Shown piece by piece: positions 13,429 to 40,351 of a stretch of 44,154 bases of DNA. The DNA lies in IMG/VR virus record IMGVR_UViG_3300024520_000144, positions 1 to 44,154 of that record; one strand, given 5' to 3'. The notes beneath the pieces were generated by a model that was not told the DNA's origin, ran no database searches, and saw nothing but the letters and a program-made list of their open reading frames with translations. The position numbers and the translations under genes are program-made. This stretch comes from a virus. How positions within the stretch are numbered: the first letter of the stretch is position 1; the number at the start of each line of letters is the position of its first letter.

Positions 13429-15167
13429 TCGGTCATGTCCTCAATGACATCGAACACCACATCCATTGCCTTGATTGACTTGTCGATGTATTGGATCGTG
13501 CCACCGACCAGGCGGGCTTTCATTTCAGGCTGGTGGAAGATGACAGCATTGTGCAGGGTTTCGCCCCGGTGATTGCCGGTGATGAATGACCTGTCAGTGG
13601 CGGGCGCGTTCCTGATTGGTGGATCGAATTCGATTTCCGCCCACCCCTCCCGATGCACCACCGTTTCTTTTGTAACCCGCTTGAATTCGCTGCGTTCGAA
13701 GGTGCTGTTGTCGGTGTTGTGGTATTGGTTGATCAGTTCAAACCGCTGCCCAGCCTTTATGATTTCGCTGCCATCAAACCCGTCAAGCACTAACGTCGAT
13801 CCGGTCTGCCATCCCGAACCGACCACCGCAGCGTCGGTGGTTTCGCGGTACGGTTTCGGGAACGGGAACTTCGTCATCTGAAAACCGAACACATCCAAGT
13901 CCATCGAATCGGTGGTGGCGAAGCTGGCATTGCCGTCACTGTCCACGGCATAAAGCCTGTAGTTCAGCGTATCGTGACTTGATATCAGTGCGGTCAGTTG
14001 TATTCGGTAGTAACCCGATGTCACATCGACAATGGCTCTATGCGGTCGTTCGATATTGGTGCCGTTCGTGATCAGGTTACTAGTGGCACCTGCGCCTGAT
14101 GTAACAATGAAGTCAGCATAAGCATACGCGCCCGCGCCGTCCCGCAGTTCCAGGCGGCAACGGTCAAATGTGGATGCCCTGACATACGCTGACGCGCAGA
14201 ATAAATCTTCCGTGTTCAGCTTGGTATATGCCTGCTCAAGATAGTGATTCGCACTGGCTTCGTCGGAATTGACGAATAGCTGCCAGCTATCACTGCCGCC
14301 CTTCGGGTCAGTATTCGCACCGGACTGGACGCTGCAGGCTGATTGCGTCCAGTCAGCGTGCGCGAAGTTGTTGGATCGCGTCAGCAGGTTTTCCGAATTG
14401 GCTACAAGCGCACACCGCTTCAGTTGATAGTCGGCATATTCCCACCCCGCACCGACCAGGCTGGTGCCGCTGGATGTCTGCTCACCGATCCCCGCACCTA
14501 TCTCAGTGGTGTCGCTGGGTTCAGCAAAGAACGGTGTAGACAGCACGCCGGGGCTGCTGACTGCCGCCGTTCCTGGGCCTGCCATCAGTTCCGCACCAGC
14601 CGCACCGGAATGCACGGCAAGAAAACAGTTGTGGTTTTTGCTGTGCGTGAAGTGCTTGACCCGGTGCAGATACGCCTTGCCGGATTCCAGCGAATTGACT
14701 TCGCCCGCGCTGCCGTGCCCGAACCAGGCAACGCTTTCGTGATCGGAATGCTCCAGCCATTCCATGCGCAGCGTCCGTTCGTCGGTGACATGGTGCGCCA
14801 CTTCCGCGCCCGCGCTGAACCACGAATTGACCTTCAGCGTGTCCGATCCCGCGCTGACATTAAACGATCCGTATCCGCTGAACACATCAATCCAATCCGA
14901 CACCGTGCCCCGGATTTCATAGTCGCCTGGATCAGTGACGCGGAAGGTGTTCACGCTGCCTTTACACCGCAGCAGAAATGCCTGCACCACTTCGCGTTCG
15001 CTTTCACTCAGGTCGGTGAATTCAAACGTCCAACCCCACACTGGATTTCCGCGGCTGACCACCTGCTGAACATTCGTTAGCGGTGATGCGATGGTTTCAT
15101 CCACGCGCCGAAGCTGCGCCGTGACCCGCGCAGGTTTGATGTGATTGGGGAAATCAATAAGACTCAT
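13425..15167 (-). CDS. Distal tail protein with internal lectin-like insertion
   Basis: 580 aa, long for this position. Residues 1-95 (PNHIKPARVTAQLRRVDE ... FLLRCKGSVNTFRVTDPGDYEI) and 450-580 (LINQYHNTDNSTFERSEF ... VFDVIEDMTE) look like the two halves of a distal-tail protein. Between them, residues 258-440 (NSENLLTRSNNFAHADWTQ ... ASAYVRASTFDRCRLELRDG) have the pattern of a carbohydrate-binding-module-like jelly roll, common in phage tail tips that bind sugars. It starts on the tape-measure stop (ATGA). Probably forms the ring between tube and hub and gives an extra receptor contact. Confidence 0.7.
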   Translation of the reverse strand: MSLIDFPNHIKPARVTAQLRRVDETIASPLTNVQQVVSRGNPVWGWTFEFTDLSESEREVVQAFLLRCKGSVNTFRVTDPGDYEIRGTVSDWIDVFSGYGSFNVSAGSDTLKVNSWFSAGAEVAHHVTDERTLRMEWLEHSDHESVAWFGHGSAGEVNSLESGKAYLHRVKHFTHSKNHNCFLAVHSGAAGAELMAGPGTAAVSSPGVLSTPFFAEPSDTTEIGAGIGEQTSSGTSLVGAGWEYADYQLKRCALVANSENLLTRSNNFAHADWTQSACSVQSGANTDPKGGSDSWQLFVNSDEASANHYLEQAYTKLNTEDLFCASAYVRASTFDRCRLELRDGAGAYAYADFIVTSGAGATSNLITNGTNIERPHRAIVDVTSGYYRIQLTALISSHDTLNYRLYAVDSDGNASFATTDSMDLDVFGFQMTKFPFPKPYRETTDAAVVGSGWQTGSTLVLDGFDGSEIIKAGQRFELINQYHNTDNSTFERSEFKRVTKETVVHREGWAEIEFDPPIRNAPATDRSFITGNHRGETLHNAVIFHQPEMKARLVGGTIQYIDKSIKAMDVVFDVIEDMTE

Positions 15168-16771
15168 AAACGCACCGACCCGGTTTCAACGTATTCCTTG
15201 ACCTTCATCATCAGCCTGCGGTCACGTTGTTCCATGTACTGCGGCAACCGCGCAATCAACCCAGGATCGGCACCACGCGCATCGATCTTCGTCACGAACT
15301 GCATACCACCGGCACCAGACATCAGCGCACTGTTCGATGCGATACTGCCGCTGGCATTTGGGATGAACATTTCCGGCCCACGTTCGCCGACGATGTACGG
15401 TGTGCCTTTCGATACTGGCCCACCACCTGCCCTGCCTTCAAGCATTTCACTGAAGAATGCTGTGAATGGTTCGGTCAGCAGCTTGCGTGTGACCAGGCGC
15501 AGCATATCCTTCAGCAGCCCCTGCATCACTTCGCGGAACTTCTTGCCTTCCACGATAGCGTCTTCAAACGCCGACACGAATTGCAGTCCCAGGTCTTGCG
15601 CGGTTTCGGATATTTCCTTCGTCTTTTCGCTGACTTCCCCCAGACCTTCCAGCAGGCGTTCGGGGATCATCGACATTTCGTTCTGCTGCAACCATTCCGC
15701 AAACCCGTCGAAGGTGCCGACCAGGGTGCCGGGTTTTTCCAGTGGCGAAAGCGTTGTCGGTCGCTTCGTGCCGCCACCACCTGCGCCGGAACCACCGCCT
15801 TCACCATCTGGCGCATCATCACGCAGGTTGTTCAATTTGGTGATCTGCGCAATTACATCAGCAATCTTGCCTTCAAGACGTTCGAAGTATGGCGACTGTG
15901 CTGCCACAGTTTCGCCCACCTTGTTGACGAATTCGATCTGTTCAGCCAGCAGGCCAGCCAATTCGCCCTGCAAATCTGCAACCGTCTTATCGATAAGACC
16001 CATCCACTTACCGAATTCCGTAAACGCTTTTGCAGATTCGATGACAACGTTAAGGAACGCAGTTGCCATCAGTTCAATAGCTTCAGCATTATCCGCAAAT
16101 GCCTGGATGAACTTTGTGCGGATCGCGGTTTCCAGCCGATTGAAAGCATCCTGCGCTTTTTCAGCTTTGGCAATGGATTCGTTATCGATGACCAGTCCCA
16201 GCCTGCGGGCTTCGTCGGTCAGTGCCTTGATGCCGTCCACGCCCTGATCGGTGAGCGTGACCAGCTTCGGCCCGAAGTCATCACCGAACAATTGCGCGGC
16301 AACGGCAGACCGTTCGGCAACCGTTTCCATGCTTTGCATCGCATCAACGACGCGGAAGAAGGCACGTTCGGTGCCGATAAACTTGCCGCTGGCATCAGTG
16401 ATTTCGATGCCCAGGCTTTCAATGGCTTTCTGCGCTGGCCCTGCGCCACTGTTGATGAACTCACCCATGCGCCGCTGCATACGCCGCAGCGAATCATCCA
16501 GGCCACGGGCTTCAACACCGGACTGCGCTGCCGCGAATCGGAATTCCTGCAGGGTTTCGGCACTGACCCCGATCACCTTCGCAGTCTTGCCTAACTGATC
16601 CGCCATGCCGATGGCGCGCTTTGTGGCAACCAGCAATGCCGCGCCGATCCCGGCAGCAGCCAGTGACAGCTTCTTCGCAAAGGCACCGAACTTCTGCGAC
16701 ATCGTGCCTAGCTTGGTGCTGAACTTGTCAACGACTTCGACGCTGAATTGAATTACGTTCTTACGTGCCAC
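15164..16771 (-). CDS. Tail tape measure protein
   Basis: 535 aa from a GTG at 16771, which overlaps the end of the frameshifted chaperone frame. An N-terminal helical region (FSTKLGTMSQKFGAFAKKLSL) includes a hydrophobic helix (AAAGIGAALLVATKRAIG, about 36-53). A long helical middle, a Gly-rich linker (DGEGGGSGAGGGG, about 315-330) and the typical C-terminal motif GRAGGGPVSKGTPYIVGERGPEMFIP (about 435-460) follow. Tape measures set tail length; about 535 aa implies a fairly short tail of roughly 80 nm by the usual 1.5 angstrom per residue rule. Confidence 0.9.
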   Translation of the reverse strand: MARKNVIQFSVEVVDKFSTKLGTMSQKFGAFAKKLSLAAAGIGAALLVATKRAIGMADQLGKTAKVIGVSAETLQEFRFAAAQSGVEARGLDDSLRRMQRRMGEFINSGAGPAQKAIESLGIEITDASGKFIGTERAFFRVVDAMQSMETVAERSAVAAQLFGDDFGPKLVTLTDQGVDGIKALTDEARRLGLVIDNESIAKAEKAQDAFNRLETAIRTKFIQAFADNAEAIELMATAFLNVVIESAKAFTEFGKWMGLIDKTVADLQGELAGLLAEQIEFVNKVGETVAAQSPYFERLEGKIADVIAQITKLNNLRDDAPDGEGGGSGAGGGGTKRPTTLSPLEKPGTLVGTFDGFAEWLQQNEMSMIPERLLEGLGEVSEKTKEISETAQDLGLQFVSAFEDAIVEGKKFREVMQGLLKDMLRLVTRKLLTEPFTAFFSEMLEGRAGGGPVSKGTPYIVGERGPEMFIPNASGSIASNSALMSGAGGMQFVTKIDARGADPGLIARLPQYMEQRDRRLMMKVKEYVETGSVRL

Positions 16772-18822: not shown

Positions 18823-19283
18823 TTCTTGGTTACCTTTTCCAGATAGCCCGCATAAATCCCATAAAGCGCGGTGCTAACTGCCTGGTCATTCACTTCCGGC
18901 AGCATCCGGCGTTTAGGCAGGTTCCGCATCGGCAGACCTTCTTCGTGATAAAGCGAATATGACAGGTCGGAACCCACAATCACGGTCTTCTGGGTTGCCT
19001 TGAAGTCGAAACTGGCGCGCAGTCTGCCCGTGTCCTGCAGCAGCTTGGCTGTGGTGTCCAGACCAACACCCTTCTGCCATCTGCCGCCACGCTTGAGCCT
19101 GTCCCATTTCCTGCCAGTGTGCCCACCCTGACTGCGGAAGTTCTGATTGATCCAGCGCATCAGCCAGATACCAGCCCGCCGATTCGCAGGCCGCGCATCC
19201 TTCAGGTCGTGCTGAACCTGGGCGAACTTCCGCACCAGCCTGCGCTGGCTGGACTTGTCGGGCTTGACTTCGACTTCAATCAA
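18819..19283 (-). CDS. Head-tail morphogenesis protein, Mu gpG / HK97 gp10-like
   Basis: 154 aa beginning at TTG, overlapping the previous stop (TTGA). The sequence AGIWLMRWINQNFRSQGGHTGRKW ... LLQDTGRLRASFDF ... SLYHEEGLPMRNLPKRRMLP is characteristic of the virion morphogenesis or neck proteins that carry a conserved LxDTGxLxxS element followed by a P-x-R-x-hydrophobic-P ending. These proteins fit between connector and tail. Highly basic N-terminus. Confidence 0.75.
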   Translation of the reverse strand: MIEVEVKPDKSSQRRLVRKFAQVQHDLKDARPANRRAGIWLMRWINQNFRSQGGHTGRKWDRLKRGGRWQKGVGLDTTAKLLQDTGRLRASFDFKATQKTVIVGSDLSYSLYHEEGLPMRNLPKRRMLPEVNDQAVSTALYGIYAGYLEKVTKK

Positions 19284-19726
19284 TTGCGCTTGCCTTCGTC
19301 ATCGTCGGCGTGGTCTTCGTCAATCTTCCAGTTGATCGGATCGTCCATGCCAAATGAGGTGTGGTATGAATTCGTGTTACTGACCACGAACGATTTATCC
19401 AGCGACGGGATCAGCGTTCCTGCATCGTCGTACATGTTCAACTGCCGATCTTTCAGCAAGCCGACCGTTTCCCAGAATGACGACTTCACTTCGATGGCAT
19501 CATCCAGTTTGAAGCGTGCCGCCCGCCAGAAGCACCAGTCAATCGACAGATCACGGATGATCATGTTGTTGCTGCTGAATGGTGGCGTGAAGTGCGTGCT
19601 TAATGCCGCGTCCACGTATGATTCGGCGTAAACGATATATGCCGAAGAAAGCTGATCCGCGCCACCCAGCGTGTTCAGTTCCGGGTATCGGTCAATGACA
19701 TCTTCCCAATCAATATAGCGTCCCAT
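19280..19726 (-). CDS. Head-tail connector protein (DUF1320 / gp6-like)
   Basis: 148 aa from the ATG at 19726 (TGATG overlap with the preceding gene). A helical bundle start (WEDVIDRYPELNTLGGADQLSSAYIVYAESYVDAALS) and the region MIIRDLSIDWCFWRAARFK fit the small head-tail connector family of Mu gp36 and HK97 gp6. It forms the ring beneath the portal. The acidic C-terminal tail (DEDHADDDEGKRN) is probably disordered. Confidence 0.7.
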   Translation of the reverse strand: MGRYIDWEDVIDRYPELNTLGGADQLSSAYIVYAESYVDAALSTHFTPPFSSNNMIIRDLSIDWCFWRAARFKLDDAIEVKSSFWETVGLLKDRQLNMYDDAGTLIPSLDKSFVVSNTNSYHTSFGMDDPINWKIDEDHADDDEGKRN

Positions 19727-20010
19727 CAATCCACCTCACTAAGCACAGCTTTGAATCGCTTGCGTGCCTTGTACGGCAACCCCGCAATCGTCGCATCCCA
19801 CTGCGCCACATAATAACCTGCCGTCGATACACCGCTGACCACGTTCCTGTAGAAGTGCCCGTTCTGACTATTCACCCCGGCACCGCTGCTCACAATCAAA
19901 CCGGCACCATCAAGGATCGATGCCACGATCACGGACGGGTCGGTGCCGCTGGCAATGAACGTCTGTTTGAACGTGTTCCCCACCAGGACTTGCTGTAGTT
20001 TTCCGCTCAT
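19726..20010 (-). CDS. Small beta-rich structural protein, 94 aa
   Basis: Lies between the repeat-rich island proteins and the connector. It consists of short strands (LVGNTFKQTFIASGTDPSVIVASILDGAG ... GYYVAQWDATIAGLPYKARKRFKAV), a pattern of small Ig-like modules in virion proteins. Ribosome site GGCAGG before the ATG, ATGA overlap with the previous gene. It may be a head fibre cap or connector accessory. No family recognised. Confidence 0.6.
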   Translation of the reverse strand: MSGKLQQVLVGNTFKQTFIASGTDPSVIVASILDGAGLIVSSGAGVNSQNGHFYRNVVSGVSTAGYYVAQWDATIAGLPYKARKRFKAVLSEVD

Positions 20011-21503
20011 GTTTCCTGCCTCAGTCTGGTAACGATGTGCCTGTTTTCGATGTCGTGCGTCATGGCAAACTGGTCAACATCGTGCCTGATCACAAATTCG
20101 AATGCGCCCTTTATCCGCTGCGCCACGATATTGTCAGTGACATCAATGGTTTCCGTGACAGTCACTTCGTTCAGTGAAGTGACGAACGTTGCCGTGATGT
20201 CATCAGCAACATCAAACGCATCTGCCGCAATCTTAGTTCGAATTCGGCTTAATTGCGATGCGTCCACCACATCCGCCGATTCTGTCAGTGTGCGCGGCTT
20301 GTTCGCCCACGCACTAACCCCGTCAGCCACATCGAACGAATGGATTGCCTTCCGGGTGCGCTGGCGTAGAGACACCACCGCATCAGCAACTTCCAGGCTA
20401 TCGGAAACTGTGACGCTATTGATCGCGCCTGCCGCCGTGACTGTGACTGAATCCGTGACCGATATGGCATCAGCAAGCACCCGGTTGCGTTCGCGGGTTC
20501 CCACCGATACGTCAGCAGCTTCCAGGCTATCGCTGACCGACCTGGGCCGGATCGCGCCACCCAATGCGCTATCGGTTGCGGTCAGGCTATCCGACTGAAC
20601 CCGATTGCGTTCACGCTGAATATCAGTTGCATCATTGGCAGCAAGTGAATCCGAAAGGGTTTCGCTGCTTGTCTGCGCGCCTATTGCGACCGAATCCGCG
20701 ACAGCGATTGAGTCAGCCAGGACACGCTTGCGGAAACGCTGCGGATCAATTGCATCCGCTGCGGCAATAGCATCATTGGCTGCACGGTTGCGTTCGCGCA
20801 ACGGTGCTTGTGCATCAGTGGATGCCAGCGTGTCCGTGATGGTCTTTTCGCTGGCCGCAGGACGAAGCGCGAACGTGAAGCAAGCTGGGTCCTCCGTGCC
20901 AGCAGCGCCTGTTAGCCCCCAGGCACCCGGTGATTCTAGTCCAGCAGTCGCCTTGATTTTGTATGCCACACCAAAATGCCTGCTGTCTTCGATATTTTGT
21001 GCAGCCAGCGTATACCCGCTTGGTGGGACAATTGCTGTAACGGTATTGTTTTTGCAGTGGACGACGCATACCACCATCGCGCCATCGTTTAAAGTGGTGA
21101 TCGGGTCGGGAGTTGGCGCGACTTCGTTGAGTTCCACATGGAAGTGGTCGCCCACTGCATACGCGACATCCATCGGCGTGGTGAGGTGCACGCCCCGAAA
21201 AATACTGAGCATTCCGACAGTTTGATTGCTGCTGGAACCACTATCGCCAACAATAGCCTGCGTTCCGCTTTCGCTGGATGCGAATTTGCGCAGCGCAGCA
21301 ATTGTTCTGTCGCCACCAGTGATATCGCCTTCACTTGCGATCACCGTCATTCCCGAAGATGTTACCGGGTCGGCTAGATCATCACCGTTGCCGTAAGTGG
21401 CAAGCGCAAAGTCGTTATCCGCAGTGCTGGCGTGCCACGCGGGGCTAGCTGTCTTGGTTGATCCTGTAAAATCTTTTTCTGTTCCAATGTGGGCGATAGT
21501 CAT
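20007..21503 (-). CDS. Repeat-rich virion-associated protein, 498 aa
   Basis: Residues 1-215 form a beta-rich domain (KFASSESGTQAIVGDSG, MLSIFRGVH, GVAYKIKATAGLESPGAWGL) like domains appended to phage and surface proteins. Residues 220-475 consist of short repeats of the form RxRNRVxxDSLxAxDS (for example RERNRVQSDSLTATDS, RERNRVLADAISVTDS), each about 20-25 residues, Ser/Asp/Ala-rich and Cys-free. A short unique tail follows. The next upstream protein has a related repeat. It lies in the island between capsid and connector genes, so it may be a fibre on the head, or a tail fibre. Function unknown. Confidence 0.7.
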   Translation of the reverse strand: MTIAHIGTEKDFTGSTKTASPAWHASTADNDFALATYGNGDDLADPVTSSGMTVIASEGDITGGDRTIAALRKFASSESGTQAIVGDSGSSSNQTVGMLSIFRGVHLTTPMDVAYAVGDHFHVELNEVAPTPDPITTLNDGAMVVCVVHCKNNTVTAIVPPSGYTLAAQNIEDSRHFGVAYKIKATAGLESPGAWGLTGAAGTEDPACFTFALRPAASEKTITDTLASTDAQAPLRERNRAANDAIAAADAIDPQRFRKRVLADSIAVADSVAIGAQTSSETLSDSLAANDATDIQRERNRVQSDSLTATDSALGGAIRPRSVSDSLEAADVSVGTRERNRVLADAISVTDSVTVTAAGAINSVTVSDSLEVADAVVSLRQRTRKAIHSFDVADGVSAWANKPRTLTESADVVDASQLSRIRTKIAADAFDVADDITATFVTSLNEVTVTETIDVTDNIVAQRIKGAFEFVIRHDVDQFAMTHDIENRHIVTRLRQET

Positions 21504-23665
21504 TATTGTGCCTCTATCCCGGTCACGATCTTCACGGACGGTGGAAGGCGAATATCAAATCCATCAGTAACATCAAGCGCATCGGACAGCACTGCTGTGT
21601 TCAAAATGGCAGGACGCGACAACCTGACGTTGTCAGTCACCGCAACCGTATCTAATCGAATTTTGCTGGTGATCGACAGCATCCGGCTGAACGTGTCGAT
21701 CTGCGATTCCAGCGATCTGTTCAGGTTGCGCTGAATCACTTCCGCTTCGTTGATCGAAATCGAATCAGTAAGCTGCCGGGGATGGATGCCCAGGAACGTG
21801 GCATCGTTGTCGTCGCTGACGCTTACCTGATCAGTCAGCACTTTGGTGACGGTCTTTGATGGGGCCAAACCGATTGTTATTATTTTCTGGAATCCATCTG
21901 TCACGGTGATGTAATCAGCCAGCACCTGGAAAACAGTCTTGCCTGCGGCGATAGTTACCTTTTGAAATCCATCGCTAACGCTTAACTGATCAACCAAGTC
22001 CCGAAAAGTCGTTTTTGACGCAGTGGTTACTATTTTTTGCTGACTGTCGCTGACACCTAACTGGTCAGTCAGTTGCCGGAAAACCGTCACTGAAGGTGCA
22101 ACCCAAATGGTGACGACTTTCTGGAAGCCATCACTCAGCGTGATGTAGTCAGTCAGTTCCCGAAACGATTGCCGAAGGATTGCAAGAGCATCCTCCACCG
22201 TTGCTGCGTCAGTCAATGTTTTCCGTAACTGATGTTCAAGGACCATTTGATCCTCAATGCTAAAATAATCCTGAACTAACCGGGCATGAGCAAGATGAAG
22301 AAACATTGCGTCAGCAAAGTTCTCAATTTTGTCCCCGGGGCGACGTTGATAATTAGTTAGGCAGTCTTGAGGGTCCGTTACATTTACAGCATCAGTCAAT
22401 GTAACCGTGTTCACATTACCCGGGGGCTTAACTTGAACGGCAAGCATGGGCCATTTCCGTGCCGTGGAATCTGCTGTAGTGATGTCAGCAGCAATTACGC
22501 GCCAACCATCCTCAGTCGGTTGAAGGTTTTGCAATTCAACTGTCGCATCGATGCCGCCCTGCGTTGACAGGAACAGCCCCGTGTTCATCCGGCTGCTGGC
22601 AATACCGTTCTGTATTGATAAATCTCTAGCGGTTTGCGATGTGCCGCAGGCAGACATTTCTGCGCCAGTTTCTTCTTCATGGCTGAAGAAACTGAACGGC
22701 GCGGCATGACCCCCGGTTTCGCTGGCGTTTTCTGTTCGGTTCCTGTTGCAGATCAATGCCACATACTGTAGTTCAAACGGCAACCCGCTATAGTCCCAAT
22801 CACTTGACGCTGAAACGGGCGAATCAATGATGTCCACTTTGGCATCGACATTGCTGCCTTCCACCAACAAACCCTGCATCTGCCCGGTCAGTGCGCCAGC
22901 ACGCACAGTGAATGTGACATTCGTGGCATCAAGCGCAGTCAGTTCCACACCGTCAATTTCCGCACCTGTATTGGAAACGGTAAGCCCTACCCGGCTACTG
23001 CTATTCCGTGAACTGTTGTTTGTCACGGTCTGAAGGGTTTCCAGGTGAAGCCCCCATGCTGCTTGTTCAATTGTTGAATCACGGTAGGCATGGAAGCCCA
23101 TACTTAAACGACCCTCCCCGGAATTGCCGCCGTTTACATGGGACAGTGAGTAGAACCCGAATGAAGGCGCGTTTGAAAATCCGTGCGCAATTTGGAACGT
23201 GGCATCTTCAGCAACAGCATTGCCGCCGCTGAACATCTTGCAGGCACTTTCAAATACCAGATCGACAGTGAAATAGTATTGTTTCGTATCAGTAGCCAGG
23301 CAGGTTATTTTCACACCCCCTGTGATTTGCTCCACTGTGCAAAACTGCTGCGTATTGCCGCTACCGGGGATTGGCATACTGATCGGCCAGCCCGTATGGG
23401 TGGGTGACGATTCAGATGTTCGGGTGGCGCTTAATCCTTCACCAGCATCAATGTCCTTTTCGCTGATGGTGATGTTGCCGCCATTAGTGAAATCGGTATA
23501 GCCGACGTTATGGATCAGATCATTGCTTGCCGAACCAAGGATGGTTGCGTCAACACAATGGATGACTGCGCCGGTCGGTTTATCATCGCGCCCTGGTATG
23601 GTGATGTTTACATACGAACCGGCATCAGTTGGCAGCAGACCGATTGCTTTGCGCAGGACGGTCAT
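21503..23665 (-). CDS. Repeat-rich virion-associated protein, 720 aa
   Basis: An N-terminal beta-rich region (residues 1-415) with Asn/Ser/Gly-rich loops and several cysteines is followed by a repeat region (about 415-690). There, units of about 30-36 residues read like VFRQLTDQLGVSDSQQKIVTTASKTT, VFQVLADYITVTDGFQKI and VLTDQVSVSDDNDA. The core (hh-LTD-x-hxVSD-GFQK) resembles the DSLxAxDS unit in the next protein, so the pair probably arose by duplication or domain exchange. The stop overlaps the next start (TAATG). Likely a fibrous virion component. No enzymatic motif seen. Confidence 0.7.
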   Translation of the reverse strand: MTVLRKAIGLLPTDAGSYVNITIPGRDDKPTGAVIHCVDATILGSASNDLIHNVGYTDFTNGGNITISEKDIDAGEGLSATRTSESSPTHTGWPISMPIPGSGNTQQFCTVEQITGGVKITCLATDTKQYYFTVDLVFESACKMFSGGNAVAEDATFQIAHGFSNAPSFGFYSLSHVNGGNSGEGRLSMGFHAYRDSTIEQAAWGLHLETLQTVTNNSSRNSSSRVGLTVSNTGAEIDGVELTALDATNVTFTVRAGALTGQMQGLLVEGSNVDAKVDIIDSPVSASSDWDYSGLPFELQYVALICNRNRTENASETGGHAAPFSFFSHEEETGAEMSACGTSQTARDLSIQNGIASSRMNTGLFLSTQGGIDATVELQNLQPTEDGWRVIAADITTADSTARKWPMLAVQVKPPGNVNTVTLTDAVNVTDPQDCLTNYQRRPGDKIENFADAMFLHLAHARLVQDYFSIEDQMVLEHQLRKTLTDAATVEDALAILRQSFRELTDYITLSDGFQKVVTIWVAPSVTVFRQLTDQLGVSDSQQKIVTTASKTTFRDLVDQLSVSDGFQKVTIAAGKTVFQVLADYITVTDGFQKIITIGLAPSKTVTKVLTDQVSVSDDNDATFLGIHPRQLTDSISINEAEVIQRNLNRSLESQIDTFSRMLSITSKIRLDTVAVTDNVRLSRPAILNTAVLSDALDVTDGFDIRLPPSVKIVTGIEAQ

Positions 23666-25941
23666 TAGTGATCCTTAACAATGTTCATCCCAAGAAACTG
23701 CGTGTTCCCGTTCGTCTGCACTTTGATATCCGCAGACATGTCGCCCTCCACCGTCCCGGTATTGAATGCGTGGAACGATGGAATCTGCGCCACTATGGTC
23801 TGCAAATCGCTGTCGCCAGTTGGCGTATACGTGAACTGTCCACCTCCGATTCCGTTGCCGTCATTCTTGTTCCATTTTACCGTGATCGGATCGGTGTTCT
23901 GGTTGCGGAAGAAGATGCGCAAGATGATCGGTTGATGCCCGCTGATATATAACGGATCGACAGCAAAATGAATGTTCGATCCTTTCATTGCCCATTTTGC
24001 GTTTTGATAACCTGACAGCAATCCGGTGGTTCCCAGATCAATGTCATAGTCGCGTTCCCAGGTGTAGTTTCCATTCCCCAAGTAGCCGCGCTGGTACAGC
24101 CAGTGTTCGATGTTGTTCATCCTGTATGTGCCCCAGGTAGGCATCTGCCCGCCCCCGCGACAGTGCCACTGACCCAGCCAGCAGAACGCTTCCGCGCTAT
24201 CATCTTCGGGCCGTTGACCTAACTGGTATCCCAGCCAGTGTTCGGCGCGCTGATCAACTGTTTCGCTAGGTGGCGGAATGAACACATTGTCACACCGAAG
24301 CTGTACGCAGCGCATTGTCGCCATCAGGTGATGCGTCTGGTTCATTGTGATGTCGTCTGGATATTCTTCGTTTTGCTCCTGTAGCGCAGCTGCGTTTTTG
24401 ACGGGCGGAAAATCCGGGTCTTGCGTCAAGTAGAATTCAGCACGCGGGTCGTCATCCCCGTATCCAGCATAAGCTGCTTCGTTGTAAATTTCCGCAATCA
24501 GTCCGTTATCGGCTTGATGCCCCGGTGAATACTTGTTCCCCAGATAGTGTTCAATCCTGCCGCCCAATCGGGTACCGCATCCGTTGTTGATGGTGTAATT
24601 GAAGAAGGAATCTGGATCACGCTTCAACCACATCAACCGACCCGGCACACCAGCATCAACAAACGCATCTGTCCATGCCTTGATGTACGGCAACCACGCG
24701 TCTTCCGTGGAAGGTGATGTGCGGTTTACCTGCGATCCAGTCCATTCTTCCCCTTGACTGTTTGACACTCCGTGCAGCATAAAATTATGCAGACGGGGAT
24801 GGTTCATGAAGTTAGTAGCTTTCAACTTGGTCACAATCTTCAGGAACCGCGCCTTCACAAACGAATCAGTCAAGTCCAGATTGACGCGCCGAATGTTGCC
24901 CTTTGTTTCAACAAACGTTTTTATATAGTCCGGGTGGCTGCTGGATAGATTGGTTCGGTCAATAACCCACTGTGGCGCAGTAACCTGCCCCGTTTGAACT
25001 TCAACACCAGTGTCGATTCTGGTTGTCTTGCACACTACTCCGCGCATATTCAGGTGCGCTGCGTAATACTTGGTATCCATGTTGTCCAGCAGGTCATTGA
25101 TGAAATCAACGTTCCAGTTGTTTTCTTCCGGTTCAACATCCTCCCAATTGACTTTTAGGCGCACTATCTGATGACTGTCATTGTATGACGCAATACCATA
25201 TCCTGTCGGCCCTTGAAACGTGCCCGCGTGCTTCAGTATGTGGCTGGGGTTCACGGACAGGTCGATGCCTTCGCGGATGAAGGAACCAGGCTTCCATCCT
25301 TCGTCTGATTTCGTGTGCCCCGCGTCGTGATATGTTTTTTCTTGCGGGTCAACTGGATCAAATGAAATCTGGTCAGTGTCGAAGATAAAGAACGTGCTGA
25401 TGGACTGCGTGCCCAGGATCGGCGCACCCGCATCCCCGCTGATCAGCACCGGGTTCAGGATTTCAACGGTGCCTTCTTCATTGGTGTCAACTTCGTCAGC
25501 AGTAACGTCGATGGTCTTCGAAGATTCACCTGCCTGGAATCGCTGCGTGCCTGATAGTGGCGAAGTGCTAGCATTGACCACTGCCCAATCTACGTCAAGC
25601 ACCTGATCGGTTCTGATACTGCGTTCGATGGTAAACGAAATGACCGTGCCTTCGTTGCCCGAATACGATGTTTCATCCAGATCGAATTCAGCCTGCGCTG
25701 CCGGTGGGTCTTCTTCTTCGATGGTGTGACCCAGCACCACATCCCTGATCCTGACCATGTAATACAGACCCCCATCGACCCGGATTTCATAGTCACCGGG
25801 CACACCGCGCTGAAGCGCATGTTCTTCAGCGTGTTCTATCGCTTCGACTAAAGCGGTGTGCCTGTTCGATGCCCGTCCATCGGCAACAGCAGGTTCGTCA
25901 TTTAGCCAAAGTTCAAGATAGTTCTTCCGCGTGATATCCAT
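23665..25941 (-). CDS. Calx-beta plus glycosidase-like virion protein, 758 aa
   Basis: Residues 1-75 are a small N-terminal module. Residues 85-187 look like a Calx-beta domain (SYSGNEGTVISFTIERS ... LDVDWAVVN ... FQAGESSKTIDVT ... EGTVEILNPV). Residues 195-620 resemble a glycoside-hydrolase TIM barrel: IVRLKVNWEDVEPEENNWN at 259-277 is like the first strands of GH5/GH42-type enzymes, and GLIAEIYNEAAYAGYGDDD further on could carry an acidic catalytic residue. A C-terminal beta sandwich follows (about 630-758). It is a candidate depolymerase for host surface sugars. Family placement is tentative. Confidence 0.65.
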   Translation of the reverse strand: MDITRKNYLELWLNDEPAVADGRASNRHTALVEAIEHAEEHALQRGVPGDYEIRVDGGLYYMVRIRDVVLGHTIEEEDPPAAQAEFDLDETSYSGNEGTVISFTIERSIRTDQVLDVDWAVVNASTSPLSGTQRFQAGESSKTIDVTADEVDTNEEGTVEILNPVLISGDAGAPILGTQSISTFFIFDTDQISFDPVDPQEKTYHDAGHTKSDEGWKPGSFIREGIDLSVNPSHILKHAGTFQGPTGYGIASYNDSHQIVRLKVNWEDVEPEENNWNVDFINDLLDNMDTKYYAAHLNMRGVVCKTTRIDTGVEVQTGQVTAPQWVIDRTNLSSSHPDYIKTFVETKGNIRRVNLDLTDSFVKARFLKIVTKLKATNFMNHPRLHNFMLHGVSNSQGEEWTGSQVNRTSPSTEDAWLPYIKAWTDAFVDAGVPGRLMWLKRDPDSFFNYTINNGCGTRLGGRIEHYLGNKYSPGHQADNGLIAEIYNEAAYAGYGDDDPRAEFYLTQDPDFPPVKNAAALQEQNEEYPDDITMNQTHHLMATMRCVQLRCDNVFIPPPSETVDQRAEHWLGYQLGQRPEDDSAEAFCWLGQWHCRGGGQMPTWGTYRMNNIEHWLYQRGYLGNGNYTWERDYDIDLGTTGLLSGYQNAKWAMKGSNIHFAVDPLYISGHQPIILRIFFRNQNTDPITVKWNKNDGNGIGGGQFTYTPTGDSDLQTIVAQIPSFHAFNTGTVEGDMSADIKVQTNGNTQFLGMNIVKDH

Positions 25942-25947
25942 TGGAAT

Positions 25948-25964
25948 GGGGCTTGATCAGCCCC
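25948..25964 (-). promoter_or_regulatory. Hairpin immediately before the glycosidase-like gene
   Basis: GGGGCT and AGCCCC pair over six GC-rich base pairs around a 5-base loop, in the 28-base gap between the 165-aa protein gene and the ATG at 25941. There is no usual ribosome binding site before that ATG. The hairpin may attenuate transcription or control translation of the glycosidase-like protein. Confidence 0.4.
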
Positions 25965-25969
25965 GTCCG

Positions 25970-26467
25970 TTAGATGTTATGCGAACCGACTTGGACTTGA
26001 ACTTCCAGGTGCAGGAAGTCAGAGTCAGCCAGCACCGTCGAAAGTCCTGCCGCGACATTCAGATAATGACCGGAACCTGATGTCGGGTGATTGGCAATGC
26101 CCGCCATTTCCAGGTCGTTACTGGTCACGCTATCTGCGGCACCACCCCAGGTGGCAATCGCAACGATCAGTTCGCTGGAATTACTGATCAGCGCGGCCTG
26201 CTTGCGGTCGCATTCCAGAATTTCCTGTGAATTGATGTGCGCGGTGTAATCCGCCGTACCGATTGCGATCCAGTTGTACTTCGATCCGGTGTCACTGATG
26301 GCACGATATGCCAGGTGATCCAGGCCACTGGCTGTGACGATATTCGGCAAAACCTTGCGTTCGATTTCGCCATTTGCGCGGGTGATTGTCCTGATGAACG
26401 TGCCTTGAATCGGAACGCTTGACAGGAATGCCGCAGCAACATCTGCTTCAGCGATACTTTTCTTCAT
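25970..26467 (-). CDS. Putative virion protein, 165 aa
   Basis: I choose the ATG at 26467 (MKKSIAEADVAAAF), which has GAGG nine bases upstream; a second ATG at 26482 lies on that site. The beta-rich product has LPNIVTASGLDHLAYRAISDTGSKYNWIAIGTADYTAHI and repeated GS-rich turns, a style I associate with small phage tail or capsid appendage proteins. Its start is 20 bases inside the glycosyltransferase gene. It may be the acceptor or anchor for island products, but nothing proves that. Confidence 0.65.
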   Translation of the reverse strand: MKKSIAEADVAAAFLSSVPIQGTFIRTITRANGEIERKVLPNIVTASGLDHLAYRAISDTGSKYNWIAIGTADYTAHINSQEILECDRKQAALISNSSELIVAIATWGGAADSVTSNDLEMAGIANHPTSGSGHYLNVAAGLSTVLADSDFLHLEVQVQVGSHNI

Positions 26468-29414
26468 AGCTCTTGACCTCATCGTTTATCAGAACCGATA
26501 AAAACTTATCCAGGTGCCGTTGATTCAGAAACCGCGCCGACAATTCTGGCACCTGTGCCAACTGTGGCGCGTTGACCCCATCCCCACTTGAGAACTTGAA
26601 TCGGAACGTGAATCCACGATCCAGGCAATTCACAAGCACATCATAAAACTCTAAATGATCCCTGACCATCCGCTTCACTTGCGGGTGGTCACCGTGATCA
26701 TCCAGTGTTCTTTCCCACAATTCCAGTCCCATCATCGCACGTTGTTGCATTTCAGCGGTAACGCCACCACCCGTGGACTCCAATTCGAAGCGGTTCATCA
26801 GTGCCAGATCACGTATCCAAAGGAACGCGCCCAGCAGCCGATCAGGGTTTTCCTGCCTGTCCCGCGCCATCAGCGACACGTTGCGTTCGAACCGCTTGCG
26901 CCTGACTGATTCGATATTGTAGCCACCATGCGCGAAGTGCATTTCGTGGCAGACCCACGCAAACCCCACACCTTCGTTCGGTTTGTTGATGTTTTCCGGG
27001 TGTTCGTGAACCACACCCAGGAACTTCACATCGGGATTTCGCCGGAACAGGCGCACCGGAAAGTCCGTGCTGAGTACGGCAGTCGGTTCCACGCTGAAGT
27101 GGTGCTGCGCGATCCCGTAGCCTTGCCAGGTATTGTGCCGCAGGTATTTCGCCATGCGGTCACAGCCGACGAATTCTTCGTCAGCATCACCCCAGAAAAT
27201 CCAATCACACTGCGCCTTTTCGATGACTTCATTGCGCGCTGCATCGAACCCGATGTCCAGCGGTGACGGGATATCGAACTGCGTCACGGGAATCCTGGGA
27301 CTGCGGTGGCTGTGAACCACATCGGTTTCGAATGCCGTGATCACTGCGCGGGTGTTGTCCGATGTGCTTTCATCCACGCCGATGATGATTTCATCGACCA
27401 CGGGCGCGATGCCACGCAGCAGTCGCGGCAGATCATACTGCCCGTCTTTCACGATGGCGCAAAAGCTGACCGTCTGTTTCGGACGCTGCTGCCAGTATTT
27501 GCGGTCATAGTCGATTGGATATGCTGCCGTGTTGTCCACATCCAGCGTGAACGTGGTGATGTACCAGCCCAGCACTTCGCCTTCGCCCGAATGCCCACCA
27601 GCAAGGCACATGATCTTGAAACCATCGTGGTGTTCAAACAGTTCGGTCAGGTCTTCGCGTTCTAGGTGGTGCAGGTGGAAGCGTTTCGGGTGGTCGGACT
27701 GATACGACATTTCTTCCCAGGGGCCGAACGGTGTAGTGATCACCACCGGCACATCACCGCAGATGCCCTGCACCGTGTCCATGAATTCGACGGGATCGGG
27801 AACGTGTTCAAGAATTTCGCCCAGAATCACCATGTCGCAACCACCGGCACCAGACCAGTCGTTCTGGGATGCGTTCAGCCAGTCATCTTCGATGAACACC
27901 ACGTTCGGCAATTCCCATTCGTCAGCCTTGTCCCGCGCCACCTGCACCGCTTTCGGACTGACATCGACACCGACGAATTCAATCGCTGGAAACTGCTTTG
28001 CCAGATTGTTCGTGAAGTGCCCGTGCGCGCACCCGTAGTCGATCACCTTTGCGCCTTCCGGCAGCGTCGCTACAGCCTTTGCGACTTCCTGGTATCGCGG
28101 GTGATGCTCAAATCCGACTTCATAGTGAAAATCAGGCCCGTCGTACATTTCTTCCGTGCCTTCAGCGTAGTGGGCGGCATAGGTCGCCGGATCGTTCATC
28201 CACTGATAAAGCTGCAATTCTTCGGCAATTTCGGGGCTTAACGACGGCATTTGACCCAATGCCACAATGTCAGAGTTCCGCAGGTAGTGCCGTGCCATCG
28301 CGTCTGGGTTGCCGCAGGCTTCCATGAAACTGTCCCGAATCACTGCTTCGATTTCATCGGTTGCCTTCTCCCACGTATATTCGCGCCGGGGCCTGCGCCG
28401 GAACTGGTTGTTGAAGTCACTCAAGCGTTCCACGAACCGATCCACGTTCACCCCATCATCGGTGTTCGGAATCTGCGTGCAGTTCGGATAATCGCCCAGC
28501 GTTTCCGGTAGCGCAGCAGTCGGTGTGGTGAAGATCGTAAGCCCTGCCGCCATCGCTTCCATTGCCGTGATGCAGGACACTTCTTCGAACTCCGTCGGGT
28601 AGCACCAGACATCCGCTTCCTCACACATGAACTTGTACAATTCTGCCTTCGTCAGCGCGCCCATGTGTTCGCAGTTCGGCAAGGCATCTACCTGTTCGCG
28701 CAACATGGCATAGAACGGCGCAAGCTGTTCCACGGGATGTTCATACCCGCAGACCTTCAGCGTGATGTGCGGTGCCTTTTCAGCCAACTGTTCCATGATC
28801 TGTCCAGGCATCACCAGATTTTCCAGACCACGTTCCGGGCGGGAACAGTAAAGCAGGGTGATCGGCTTGATGCCGTCTTTGCCTGCCTTGCTGTTGTCCT
28901 TCAGTTCGAACTGTTCAAACAGATCGTAATCCACCCCGTTGTGGATCGGCGTGATGCGTTCGGGATCGACCAGCCATTGTTCGGCAATCTGCTCCTTGAA
29001 CCAGTTGCTGACCGGCATGATCTGCGTGGTCTGCCAGTTGCTTGACATGATCGCATCGTTGTTTCGGCGCAGCGCGATATCGTGCGCCCACCACAGGTTG
29101 ATCTTGCTTTGGTAGTTGAAGTAAAAACCGACCGGCACCCGCTGGATGATGTTCACATCGTGCGGTGTGTTTTCGCAGTAGAAGTGCCAGTTCGTACCCA
29201 TCGGCTTTTGTTCATTCTTCGGCCCGATGAACAGATAGTTCACACCATCGAAGTTGCCTTCTTCTTCGCTTTCGGTGAAGACGTTGACCCGGTGTCCACG
29301 GGCGGCAAGTTCCTTTGCGACGTAGTAGGCAGCAGATTCGCTGCCACCCAATGATCGCTCATTGACGGTGTTGCCATTGAACGGGATTCCGCTTGCGTAG
29401 ATAACGATGTGCAT
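26448..29414 (-). CDS. Three-domain enzyme: GT4 glycosyltransferase, SAM methyltransferase, GT2 glycosyltransferase
   Basis: 988 aa from the ATG at 29414 (GGAG nine bases before). Residues 1-360 are a GT-B fold of the GT4 family: LGGSESAAYYVAKELAARGH at the N-terminus, LLYCSRPERGLENL in the middle and EFEEVSCITAMEAMAAGL (E-x7-E motif) near 285. Residues 445-625 are a class I methyltransferase with VIDYGCAHGHF (SAM loop, about 457-467), VGVDVSPKAV and LGEILEHVPDP. Residues 655-830 are a GT2 domain with FCAIVKDGQYDLPRLL, DEIIIGVDESTSDNT and WGDADEEF (DxD-like, about 751-758). It could build and methylate a short glycan on the virion or host surface. Coupled to the sulfotransferase gene. Confidence 0.88.
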   Translation of the reverse strand: MHIVIYASGIPFNGNTVNERSLGGSESAAYYVAKELAARGHRVNVFTESEEEGNFDGVNYLFIGPKNEQKPMGTNWHFYCENTPHDVNIIQRVPVGFYFNYQSKINLWWAHDIALRRNNDAIMSSNWQTTQIMPVSNWFKEQIAEQWLVDPERITPIHNGVDYDLFEQFELKDNSKAGKDGIKPITLLYCSRPERGLENLVMPGQIMEQLAEKAPHITLKVCGYEHPVEQLAPFYAMLREQVDALPNCEHMGALTKAELYKFMCEEADVWCYPTEFEEVSCITAMEAMAAGLTIFTTPTAALPETLGDYPNCTQIPNTDDGVNVDRFVERLSDFNNQFRRRPRREYTWEKATDEIEAVIRDSFMEACGNPDAMARHYLRNSDIVALGQMPSLSPEIAEELQLYQWMNDPATYAAHYAEGTEEMYDGPDFHYEVGFEHHPRYQEVAKAVATLPEGAKVIDYGCAHGHFTNNLAKQFPAIEFVGVDVSPKAVQVARDKADEWELPNVVFIEDDWLNASQNDWSGAGGCDMVILGEILEHVPDPVEFMDTVQGICGDVPVVITTPFGPWEEMSYQSDHPKRFHLHHLEREDLTELFEHHDGFKIMCLAGGHSGEGEVLGWYITTFTLDVDNTAAYPIDYDRKYWQQRPKQTVSFCAIVKDGQYDLPRLLRGIAPVVDEIIIGVDESTSDNTRAVITAFETDVVHSHRSPRIPVTQFDIPSPLDIGFDAARNEVIEKAQCDWIFWGDADEEFVGCDRMAKYLRHNTWQGYGIAQHHFSVEPTAVLSTDFPVRLFRRNPDVKFLGVVHEHPENINKPNEGVGFAWVCHEMHFAHGGYNIESVRRKRFERNVSLMARDRQENPDRLLGAFLWIRDLALMNRFELESTGGGVTAEMQQRAMMGLELWERTLDDHGDHPQVKRMVRDHLEFYDVLVNCLDRGFTFRFKFSSGDGVNAPQLAQVPELSARFLNQRHLDKFLSVLINDEVKSYEEKYR

Positions 29415-29437
29415 TTTGTATTGCTCCAAGTTGGTGG

Positions 29438-30097
29438 CTAGTAGCCGAATCGTCTTGATAGTTCCCAGATGTCTGCGGGTGGATTATGAAACATTTCTGC
29501 CTGATCTGCAGTGAAACCTTCGGCGGTAGTCACGGCATTCGGTCGGTCGGTGCCAATGTCGGTCGGCTGACCCACGAATTCAGCATCCGGGCAATCCAGA
29601 TACCGGGCAAGGCTTCGGAATTCGGCCCGCTGATCAGGCGCATCGACCCGGAACAGAATCACATCATGCCGTTCCACGATGTCTTCCAGGTCGGAAAAGG
29701 CTGACAGCACGTATGGCACGTATTCATCCGCGTCCCAGGCGTACCGATAAACATGCGTCTTGAAGACTTCGACGGGGTTGCGCACGGGGATCACCACCCG
29801 TTCGGTGGTCAGGTACGATTCCCACCACCGACCGATTTCGATGTGGCTGTGGATTAACTGGTGCTGCCCGGTGACGTTCTTCTGCGTCATGTTGCGCCAA
29901 TGCACCGAACACAGGTCATACCCGCACAGACGCAGGAATTCGTACATGTAGTGCGTCCCGGTGTGGCGAACGCTCAACAGCCAGATGCGATCAACGTCGT
30001 CAGGTTCATTGACCAGCACGAACTTGCGCGCAGGCCCTGGACGCGACGACGTATCAGGCGGGCTATGTTGATCTGCCCGCTGGACAATCAATGGCAT
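29438..30097 (-). CDS. Sulfotransferase-like protein
   Basis: 219 aa. Residues 39-51 (WLLSVRHTGTHYM) match the 5'-phosphosulfate-binding loop of sulfotransferases, and residues 102-119 (VIPVRNPVEVFKTHVYRY) match the 3'-phosphate-binding segment (R-[DN]-P ... Y/S). FSDLEDIVERHDVILFRVD is the usual following beta-alpha unit. The family transfers sulfate from PAPS to hydroxyl groups, often of sugars. The short product lacks some C-terminal helices of typical members. It lies 23 bases before the glycosyltransferase gene, suggesting that it sulfates the glycan made there. Confidence 0.75.
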   Translation of the reverse strand: MPLIVQRADQHSPPDTSSRPGPARKFVLVNEPDDVDRIWLLSVRHTGTHYMYEFLRLCGYDLCSVHWRNMTQKNVTGQHQLIHSHIEIGRWWESYLTTERVVIPVRNPVEVFKTHVYRYAWDADEYVPYVLSAFSDLEDIVERHDVILFRVDAPDQRAEFRSLARYLDCPDAEFVGQPTDIGTDRPNAVTTAEGFTADQAEMFHNPPADIWELSRRFGY

Positions 30098-30231
30098 CAG
30101 CTATTCCATTTGCTGCCTGGATTGCGACGGTGCCAATCAGCCTTCTGCTGCTGCTTGCCCTGCCGGGTGCGCTCCTGTTCGTTCACAGGTCGCTTTCTGC
30201 CGGTGCGCTTTTCAAGCGGGCGCAGTGCCAT
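30097..30231 (-). CDS. Tiny very basic protein, 44 aa
   Basis: The sequence (MALRPLEKRTGRKRPVNEQE then RTRQGKQQQKADWHRRNPGS) is about one-third Arg/Lys. Both ends are coupled: the ATG overlaps the previous stop as TAATG, and its TGA overlaps the sulfotransferase ATG as TGATG. It may bind DNA or acidic glycans, or modulate the neighbouring enzyme. No homologue recognised. Confidence 0.55.
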   Translation of the reverse strand: MALRPLEKRTGRKRPVNEQERTRQGKQQQKADWHRRNPGSKWNS

Positions 30232-30287
30232 TATTTCTTCGGTTTGGGTTTTGGTTTCGGCTTGCCGCCGACTGGTACATGTGCCAT
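30231..30287 (-). CDS. Micropeptide with Lys-Pro repeat, 18 aa
   Basis: The frame encodes MAHVPVGGKPKPKPKPKK, preceded by AGGGAA seven bases before the ATG, and its TAA overlaps the next start. Similar tiny Lys-Pro tails follow capsid genes in some phages as leader peptides; here it follows the capsid terminator. It may be a leader for the island transcript. Low complexity limits certainty. Confidence 0.45.
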   Translation of the reverse strand: MAHVPVGGKPKPKPKPKK

Positions 30288-30371: not shown

Positions 30372-31328
30372 TCAGGTGCTGGAATTCACCGCAGTCAGCA
30401 AAAAGCTGTACGCACTGCCGGTGATCTTTTCGTCCTGGTAGTAGCCGACTTCGACTTCTTCCGTCTTCGTCTTCGGATCGAACGGATGCCGTTCGGCCTG
30501 CATGTCCGGCAGACCTCCCGCATTCCACCGCATCGAATACATGAAGGCAGGCATGTCACGCGACGGTGCGGTCGGGCTGTAGTAGCACAGCACGTTATCG
30601 CCCCAGATCGCTGACAGGCTTTCGGCCTGCGCTTCGTTCGCGGTGTTCTGATAGGCGGCACCGACCAGCAACTGATCAACTTCCAGAAGTGCTGCCACCT
30701 GTTCGCGGGTAGCGTAACCACCACCGTTGTTTGTGCCGAACAGACGATTCAGAATCTGGTCATTGCGACGTAACGAACGCCACGCTGCCAGTCCCATCAC
30801 GATTCGATTGCCACGGGTGCCGGTCAAATCCTGAATGTTATCCAGGGCTGTGTTCATGTCGCCCAGCGGATCACTGGACGCGGCTGAATCCCATTCAGAA
30901 CCAACAGCGGCAGACGACCCGACGTTTGAAGTCGAATTGACCTGTCCCGCAACCCGGTTTTCCCAATCCAGCATCAACTTGCCGGTGATGAAACCCACCC
31001 CGTCGTTGATGATGTTCTGGGCGTGAATCGGATCAGCGTTTTCACGATCTTCGATAGTGATCGGATACTTCAGCGCATAGTTCTGCGCGTAGTACGTATC
31101 ACTGGAAATCGTGCGGCTGACCTTGTTGGCCTCCGTTGCCGGTGCCCGTTTCGTGTCTTCGACGCGCAACGCATCTGCCCTGCTGAAGATCGCATAAGCA
31201 TCCGACTGTTTGCCAACACTGACGACCGGCGCAATCGCGCCCGCCACGGTGTCGCCCACGGAATACCCGATTGCGATGTTCGACAGCAAAGTGTCGATGT
31301 GAAGATCGCGTCCTGTAGATTGTCCCAT
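30372..31328 (-). CDS. Major capsid protein
   Basis: 318 aa. Position after protease/scaffold and cement protein, strong ribosome site (AAGGAG, nine bases from ATG) and the downstream terminator all fit the most abundant virion protein. Features: an N-terminal arm with LLSNIAIGYSVGDTVAGAIAPVVSVGKQSDAY, a central DWENRVAGQVNSTSN helix, GNRIVMGLAAWRSLRRNDQILNRLFG and a C-terminal strand region. The pattern suits the HK97 fold of Mu-type or marine siphovirus capsids. It would assemble with the scaffold, then be matured by the protease. Confidence 0.88.
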   Translation of the reverse strand: MGQSTGRDLHIDTLLSNIAIGYSVGDTVAGAIAPVVSVGKQSDAYAIFSRADALRVEDTKRAPATEANKVSRTISSDTYYAQNYALKYPITIEDRENADPIHAQNIINDGVGFITGKLMLDWENRVAGQVNSTSNVGSSAAVGSEWDSAASSDPLGDMNTALDNIQDLTGTRGNRIVMGLAAWRSLRRNDQILNRLFGTNNGGGYATREQVAALLEVDQLLVGAAYQNTANEAQAESLSAIWGDNVLCYYSPTAPSRDMPAFMYSMRWNAGGLPDMQAERHPFDPKTKTEEVEVGYYQDEKITGSAYSFLLTAVNSST

Positions 31329-31340: not shown

Positions 31341-31694
31341 TTACGCGATTTTATCGGCGGGAAAGCTGCCGATAAGTTCGAAGATGTCGCCGGATGCAGC
31401 AGCGGTTTTGGCATAGCCGACCGATGCGGAACCCGTGACAGTGATAAGAAAGCCCGATGCGGTCACGCCGATCAAGGCACCGGATGCGATTGCAGCACCG
31501 GCATACGCCTTCATGTGTCCTTTATAAGCGACAGTTGCGTGATCACCATTGGCAGGCTTGTTCTGCAGGATACCGACCGACAGCAGCGACGTAACGCCGA
31601 CACCACCAGACAGGTCGACGGGCTTGTACTGATGCCCGGTCAAGTCCTGGGAAGCCTGAAGCGTGATTGTTTCGAATTTGCCTTGTACCGTCAT
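31341..31694 (-). CDS. Capsid cement / DUF2190-like protein
   Basis: 117 aa, Gly/Ala-rich, beta-rich (LSVGILQNKPANGDHATVAYKGHMKAYAGAAIASGALIGVTASG ... VGYAKTAAASGDIFELIG). This style is characteristic of DUF2190 proteins encoded just before capsid genes, which stabilise capsid surfaces. The ATG overlaps the scaffold stop (ATGA). Lies 12 bases before the capsid gene. Confidence 0.8.
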   Translation of the reverse strand: MTVQGKFETITLQASQDLTGHQYKPVDLSGGVGVTSLLSVGILQNKPANGDHATVAYKGHMKAYAGAAIASGALIGVTASGFLITVTGSASVGYAKTAAASGDIFELIGSFPADKIA

Positions 31695-39132: not shown

Positions 39133-39485
39133 TCCCAGCTCCTTATCGCTTCGTCTGCTTTTGCGTTCGCTTCCACCTGTTGCTGTTCAGTAAGTTCTGA
39201 CCAGGCAGCCCGCACAATGTCTTCAGGACATCGAAAGGCTAGCGCGCAAGCCGCATGACCGATCCATGCCCTTCTGTTCAGGCTTCGATCCGTTAAATTA
39301 TGCTCACATGAATACGTCCATTCATTTGCGACATGCAACATACACTCTCCGTACAAATTCGCGTTTCCGGTAAAGGTGATTGCAAGTTGCAAGTAGTGGC
39401 TTCGGTTATCCACCGATCCCCACATGTTGAATTTGGTTTCTTCCCACTTCCAGTAAGGATGCCAAATCCTATTCAAGTTGTTCAA
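39087..39485 (-). CDS. Conserved protein of the IbrAB cassette, 132 aa
   Basis: The best start is the TTG at 39485, because GGAGG lies six bases upstream inside the end of the IbrB-like gene; the longer frame lacks a site. The C-terminal half (RSLNRRAWIGHAACALAFRCPEDIVRAAWSELTEQQQVEANAKAD) looks like a conserved element I associate with genes next to phage ibrAB. It overlaps the IbrA start by 46 bases, so all three proteins are translationally linked. Probable role is as cassette partner; biochemical function unknown. Confidence 0.7.
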   Translation of the reverse strand: MNNLNRIWHPYWKWEETKFNMWGSVDNRSHYLQLAITFTGNANLYGECMLHVANEWTYSCEHNLTDRSLNRRAWIGHAACALAFRCPEDIVRAAWSELTEQQQVEANAKADEAIRSWECQRGISVKTSTKLL

Positions 39486-40119: not shown

Positions 40120-40351
40120 CACTTAGATTCCTATCCATAATCGCCCTTAACGCCATCGCTGCAATCTGTATGCACTCCCCCCGTCCACTTGCGCCCACTT
40201 CATGCGACTTCTTTTTACGGACATGCTCCCATAATTCGTCCATTTCCTCCGCTACAACCGCATACGCTTCGTGCAAGCTATGAAATCCTGGGTACTGTGC
40301 TTGTGCGCACAGCAACTCATGTTCAACTTCTTTCAATAGTTGTTTAATCAA
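40100..40351 (-). CDS. MazG-like nucleotide pyrophosphohydrolase-type protein, 83 aa
   Basis: Helical, with EVEHELLCAQAQYPGFHSLHEAYAVVAEEMDELWEHV followed by ECIQIAAMALRAIMD. The EExxE spacing (EEMDELW) and second acidic helix match the all-alpha NTP-PPase superfamily, which hydrolyses non-canonical or signalling nucleotides. The start is TTG with GGAG eight bases upstream, overlapping the preceding stop. Short for MazG, but typical of small phage versions. Confidence 0.65.
   Translation of the reverse strand: MIKQLLKEVEHELLCAQAQYPGFHSLHEAYAVVAEEMDELWEHVRKKKSHEVGASGRGECIQIAAMALRAIMDRNLSDDETDN

Follow-up and report, generated by a model that had tools for sequence, protein, structure and literature searches.

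The window analysed here, the whole 44,154-bp virus record IMGVR_UViG_3300024520_000144, carries on its minus strand an island of about 10.6 kb, flanked by the major capsid gene on one side and the first connector-type gene on the other. On this strand the late genes follow the order terminase, portal-MuF fusion, 231-aa protein, protease/scaffold, cement, capsid, island, connector-type genes, tail tube and tape measure. A cement or decoration protein of 117 aa (31341..31694, minus strand, as are the capsid, island and connector features located below; Pfam Phage_cement_2, E 6.7e-7) is encoded immediately before the major capsid protein (318 aa, 30372..31328), which matches phrog_1005 (3.7e-67), is Phage_cap_E-like with a Pfam score lying at the cut-off (5.6e-5), and ends in VNSST. 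Standard head-tail order resumes at 19280..19729 with a 149-aa product, taken by synteny as that of the first connector-type gene. A previous sequence-only reading of this DNA had remarked on the roughly 10 kb, all in one orientation, that separate capsid and connector genes usually found close together. Both remarks are borne out, by these positions and by the capsid relatives of cultured phages (less than 30% identity), in which only small genes and no annotated glycosyltransferase (GT) follow the capsid gene, one of these records being unannotated.

Downstream of the capsid gene come, in order, an 18-aa ORF, a 44-aa ORF, genes for proteins of 219 and 993 aa, and p170, p758, p720, p498 and p94. 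Relatives were taken from IMG/VR, 80 loci being fetched by the capsid protein and 80 by the 993-aa enzyme. The limit previously given to the island on the capsid side, 30287, coincides with the start of the 18-aa ORF (MAHVPVGGKPKPKPKPKK, 30231..30287), the basic 44-aa ORF (30097..30231) coming next. Both are probably real genes, since relatives have counterparts (L005 and L047 for the first; L009, L011 and L012 for the second). Small basic ORFs of the MAHVP..., MALTP..DDPN... and MLRDDAI... types stand directly after the capsid gene in most loci. From the 219-aa gene onwards, adjacent ORFs overlap by 1-35 nt or sit 8-28 nt apart, which makes translational coupling of the island genes plausible; promoters and terminators were predicted in the island no more often than in shuffled DNA. 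A megablast of the record against the loci assembled at that stage aligned L001/L004, which represent one near-identical contig, and otherwise nothing but 783 bp of L009. L001 differs from the record at two positions over 15.6 kb: at 29745 an Arg becomes Gln at residue 118 of the 219-aa protein, a residue invariant in four aligned homologues, and at 25153 one A is missing from an AAAA run, resulting in a frameshift of p758. Either difference may be real or an artefact of assembly.

The conserved core of the island is the 993-aa protein (26448..29429), identified by Pfam, invariant motifs, an AF2 model, its linkage to the capsid gene and dN/dS. The GT4, methyltransferase and GT2 functions that had been read as separate genes are all recovered by Pfam, but they reside in this single ORF. 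Its GT4 domain (approximately residues 1-385, 28275..29429) corresponds to a retaining, MshA-like GT-B fold (Pfam Glyco_transf_4, 2.7e-10; Foldseek MshA, 2.5e-14). A SAM-dependent methyltransferase (MT) domain follows (approximately residues 440-610, 27600..28112; Pfam Methyltransf_31, 4.2e-18) and then a GmaR/SunS-like GT2 domain with DADEE and VHEHPE motifs (approximately residues 645-880, 26790..27497), assigned by PDB profile search and Foldseek. Translation likely starts at M6, where most homologous alignments begin. The AF2 model is of high quality (pLDDT 90.5, pTM 0.90). Across 40 aligned sequences, D748, D750 and E751 (DxD) and H808-E809-H810 of the GT2 domain, G470 of the methyltransferase and R197, E199 and G201 of the GT4 domain are invariant, and E291, D464, G466 and E309 show at least 90% conservation. 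Where synonymous change is unsaturated, overall dN/dS is 0.06-0.15, and it is low in every domain for which it could be computed. With intact catalytic motifs and purifying selection, the fusion thus looks active. An intein with a LAGLIDADG-like domain interrupts the C-terminal third of the fusion in L076 (11472-15515), within or just after the GT2 part. Shorter GT4-GT2 relatives (L099, L100 and L101) have no methyltransferase domain, so methylation is not universal.

The nearest solved structures to the GT2 domain in the PDB profile search are GmaR (5.3e-29) and SunS (3.2e-23), the latter also found by Foldseek (4.6e-14). GmaR glycosylates flagellin (PMC9638930), and SunS is, by its NCBIfam name, a peptide S-glycosyltransferase. 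These proteins and ThuS, the nearest in solved sequence and fold, have the VHE[HE]P motif and its arrangement in common with the GT2 domain; unlike the three-domain fusion, they are single-GT enzymes. Against the NCBIfam SunS model (TIGR04195) the domain scores 34.6-62.5 bits for a cut-off of 350, and is therefore a relative of SunS, not a member of its family. SPbeta-like phages contain GT2 relatives annotated as LPS-biosynthesis GTs. As SunS-related enzymes include such LPS-annotated ones, a protein acceptor remains putative.

The stretch that separates the capsid gene from the fusion gene varies among loci, and we call it the tailoring slot. In the studied phage and its closest relatives it encodes the 219-aa protein (29438..30097), predicted from motifs, AF2, Foldseek and VIA to adopt a PAPS-sulfotransferase fold. 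The AF2 model, built on a four-sequence alignment, has a pLDDT of 70.6 and a pTM of 0.70; its top 23 Foldseek rows are all sulfotransferases (best E 1.7e-5), and VIA gives Z of about 10 to SULT, heparan 3-O-sulfotransferase (3-OST) and tyrosylprotein sulfotransferase (TPST) structures. The motifs SVxHTGTHY, FIHxH and RNPVEVFK are conserved and, compared by eye, VxHTGTHY, FIHxH and RNPVEVFK[ST] would fall at the places of the PAPS-binding loops (5' loop behind the first strand; 3' loop R..S/T) and catalytic base. The sulfotransferase proposed by the sequence-only reading is thus supported by its predicted fold, while searches by sequence in Pfam, PHROGs, NCBIfam and the PDB returned no sulfotransferase match. 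Homologues in IMG/VR amount to a handful, all in the closest relatives of the studied phage, so sulfation is not general, and the glycan of the studied phage itself may be sulfated. Among open-licence papers we found neither a phage sulfotransferase nor a sulfated phage glycan. A DUF3440/PAPS-reductase-domain protein (37912-39132) is encoded elsewhere in the record beside a weak ParB_N-like protein (39469-40122); the two resemble the IbrA/IbrB pair and probably have no part in supplying the sulfotransferase with PAPS. In other loci the slot contains two methyltransferases (L013), an extra GT4 (L054, L061, L068, L069 and L075) or a Rha protein (L049). The island of L064 encodes radical-SAM proteins (14643-16569) downstream from the fusion.

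The search suggested earlier, for the gene set between capsid and connector genes of other phages, recovers the fusion. Starting from the capsid, it is present within 2.6 kb downstream in 49 of the 50 viral contigs that extend at least 3.2 kb beyond the capsid gene, the sole exception (L073) having no adjacent fusion and a separate GT4 about 7 kb downstream. Starting from the enzyme, a capsid gene lies within 2.6 kb upstream in all 56 viral loci with enough upstream DNA. This linkage is far above chance. The fusion also diverges together with the capsid (r 0.76 for pairwise divergences) and the head protease (0.79), as capsid and protease do with each other (0.72), and so behaves like a core head gene. 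Moreover, it is found downstream of an unrelated, SU10-type capsid gene (PF17236, E 1.5e-52 to 3.1e-76) in the prophage-like contigs L097, L098 and L100, this arrangement occurring in Mariprofundaceae, Poribacteria and Hebobacteria contigs. In two Myxococcales MAG contigs (L093 and L094), full-length GT4-MT-GT2 fusions have no capsid match nearby and are preceded by small proteins.

Could the fused enzyme instead alter the host surface (LPS, O-antigen or capsule), thereby excluding other phages or changing serotype, its position after the capsid gene reflecting nothing but late expression? Phage GTs often act in this way, cytoplasmic GT4 and GT2 enzymes also build LPS, and the annotation of the SPbeta-like relatives points in the same direction. 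Serotype-conversion genes, however, are usually lysogenic morons accompanied by membrane partners. Unlike them, the fusion is fixed in the late head operon at the frequencies given above, it co-diverges with head genes and recurs beside a second capsid family, and neither a flippase nor any other membrane partner was recognised among the scanned genes of the record. We therefore consider an action on the host surface unlikely.

The remainder of the island is a fibre-like module. p170 (25970..26482; 48 ORF hits) is a putative fibre-like protein of the virion, and its gene begins before the fusion gene has ended. Of the 34 members of its family, 16 have a match to phrog_4176, 'tail fiber protein'; its own matches to the PDB are at chance level. 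The 165 aa previously assigned to it are obtained from its second ATG, the listed start giving 170 aa. p758 (23665..25941), with homologues only in L009- and L012-type relatives, has a weak GH42-like stretch (Pfam E 0.0033, 17.3 bits for a gathering cut-off of 21) and no match among PDB sequences, so that the glycosidase call made for it falls short, and Pfam did not find the Calx-beta domain also ascribed to it. p720 (21503..23665; a family of about 35 ORF hits) is a repeat protein related to p498 (20007..21503), in which DSLxVxDxVxxxRxRxR repeats can be read. At the DNA level their genes contain no tandem repeats beyond one short array, and the repeats are therefore those of the proteins. 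Finally, p94 (19726..20010) is a small protein recognised by its co-occurrence with p170 and a repeat protein.

This module is separate and optional. Among 72 distinct, mutually related enzyme loci with a connector, p170, a repeat protein (p720/p498) and p94 are all present in 23 and all absent in 44, with p94 only in four and p170 plus p94 in one; given the kinship of the loci, a Fisher value for this association does not stand for a probability. Where p170 is present (24/72), about 4.2 kb separate enzyme and connector; where it is absent (48/72), the median gap is 13.5 nt. That the glycan sits on this module (p170, p758, p720 and p498) would fit with two facts: the p170 gene begins within the 3' end of the fusion gene, overlapping it by 20 nt in 20 loci and by 41, 35 or 44 nt in others, and p170 is found among these loci only together with the enzyme. 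Yet the enzyme does without p170 in two thirds of the loci, with hardly any space left before the connector, and the module cannot be its only substrate; as the main site of the glycan it is improbable. The idea of a dedicated substrate among the fibre-like and repeat proteins is thereby left unsupported, and the island is not one co-inherited set: it comprises a fixed core, the fusion enzyme, and two variable parts. The fibre-like module may nevertheless be an additional acceptor.

A Pfam scan of 20 further proteins of the record, a part of its ORFs, recognised ERF, YqaJ, a RecA-dependent nuclease, the PAPS-reductase/DUF3440 protein, the cement protein and a tail protein. Glycosylation of hypermodified phage DNA as a protection against restriction is very improbable: DNA-acting phage GTs are known, sets of methyltransferase and GT occur in DNA hypermodification and an additional island GT2 of L075 shows a marginal TAGT match (E 0.041, under the cut-off), but these 20 proteins gave no base-hydroxylating or thymidylate-synthase-like family match, the GT2 domain is nearest to protein and peptide GTs, and DNA-modification genes are not typically located beside the capsid gene as this one is.

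We therefore favour virion protein glycosylation: the island is probably a system of this kind, embedded in the head operon of a widespread and apparently uncultured lineage of tailed phages. Of the methylated and sulfated glycan that had been suggested, the setting stands, in that the enzymes are encoded within the head operon and the fusion is linked to the capsid gene, while sulfation does not extend to the lineage. In the mechanism we consider likeliest, the C-terminal GT2 domain would act in the cytoplasm of the host while late genes are expressed, linking one sugar to a virion-protein side chain. The N-terminal GT4 would then add a second sugar and the central methyltransferase would cap the glycan by O-methylation. 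In the studied phage the extra sulfotransferase would sulfate the glycan using host PAPS; in other relatives the place of this enzyme is taken by additional methyltransferases or one more GT4. The benefit could be shielding of the surface or altered adsorption. The order of reactions, the acceptor, the identity of the sugars, the sulfation and the benefit are what we infer here. A more ambitious version, in which the lineage always glycosylates its capsid by means of one fused GT4-MT-GT2 enzyme, across two unrelated capsid families, with sulfation in addition in the studied phage and a swappable slot changing the surface chemistry, is advanced only tentatively, and we would rather doubt that it holds in full.

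Nearly all carriers must have the acceptor, which favours the capsid or cement protein over the optional fibre-like module. The C-termini of carrier capsids are unusually regular (VNSST, VTSV, VGSAQ), with Ser or Thr in the last three residues in 101 of 114 capsids with the enzyme versus 4 of 15 cultured relatives without it, a contrast between one clade and its outgroups that shared ancestry may explain. L079 and L090 have the enzyme and no such residue at the very end of the capsid. Ser/Thr at the capsid C-terminus (VNSST in the studied phage) is thus one candidate acceptor site, judged from sequence.

The closest parallel is the head operon of Corndog (mycobacteriophage Cluster O), which includes an O-methyltransferase, two glycosyltransferases and a GlcNAc-transferase, for which its authors suggested capsid modification (PMC4351075). 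Both systems have GT and methyltransferase genes inside a head operon. In Corndog each enzyme has its own gene, these genes lie between portal and protease, and the arrangement is that of a single phage cluster; here one fused polypeptide, conserved in a wide lineage, directly follows the capsid, and the studied phage has a sulfotransferase as well. Capsid and tail-tube subunits of mycobacteriophages bear glycans at their C-termini, according to passages of PMC12619734 that cite Freeman et al. 2023, and the F1 phage Maravista has GT genes near the 3' end of its genome (PMC11256854). There as here the GTs are phage-encoded and decorate virion proteins, in the present system putatively. No fused GT4-MT-GT2 comparable to ours was found in the phage collection searched, none of whose 50,697 records matches 80% of the length of the fusion. 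In the uncultured podovirus ctKR88 (MW202524; L237 1656-7307), the capsid gene precedes three genes with GT-like names. This run of GT genes after the capsid gene is similar in layout, but it consists of different, separate GTs, covering 31% of the fusion at 28% identity.

Phage virion glycosylation as such is already known, having been reported for a few mycobacteriophages. New are the fusion itself, the fact that it is almost invariably linked to the capsid gene in a large lineage and is found again with another capsid family, the slot with its exchangeable enzymes, and the likely sulfotransferase. A sulfated phage glycan, if true, would be new to the open-licence literature searched. The fused enzyme is convenient to reconstitute in E. 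coli, and the variable slot, with its methyltransferase, GT4 or sulfotransferase, lends itself to comparing surface chemistries as they occur in nature. In a broad environmental lineage the enzyme looks like one of the core head genes, and the collection searched has no full-length counterpart of it; many uncultured phages may therefore glycosylate their capsids. A sugar coating of the virion may be a built-in trait of this lineage, the fused enzyme being no less constant than the capsid gene.
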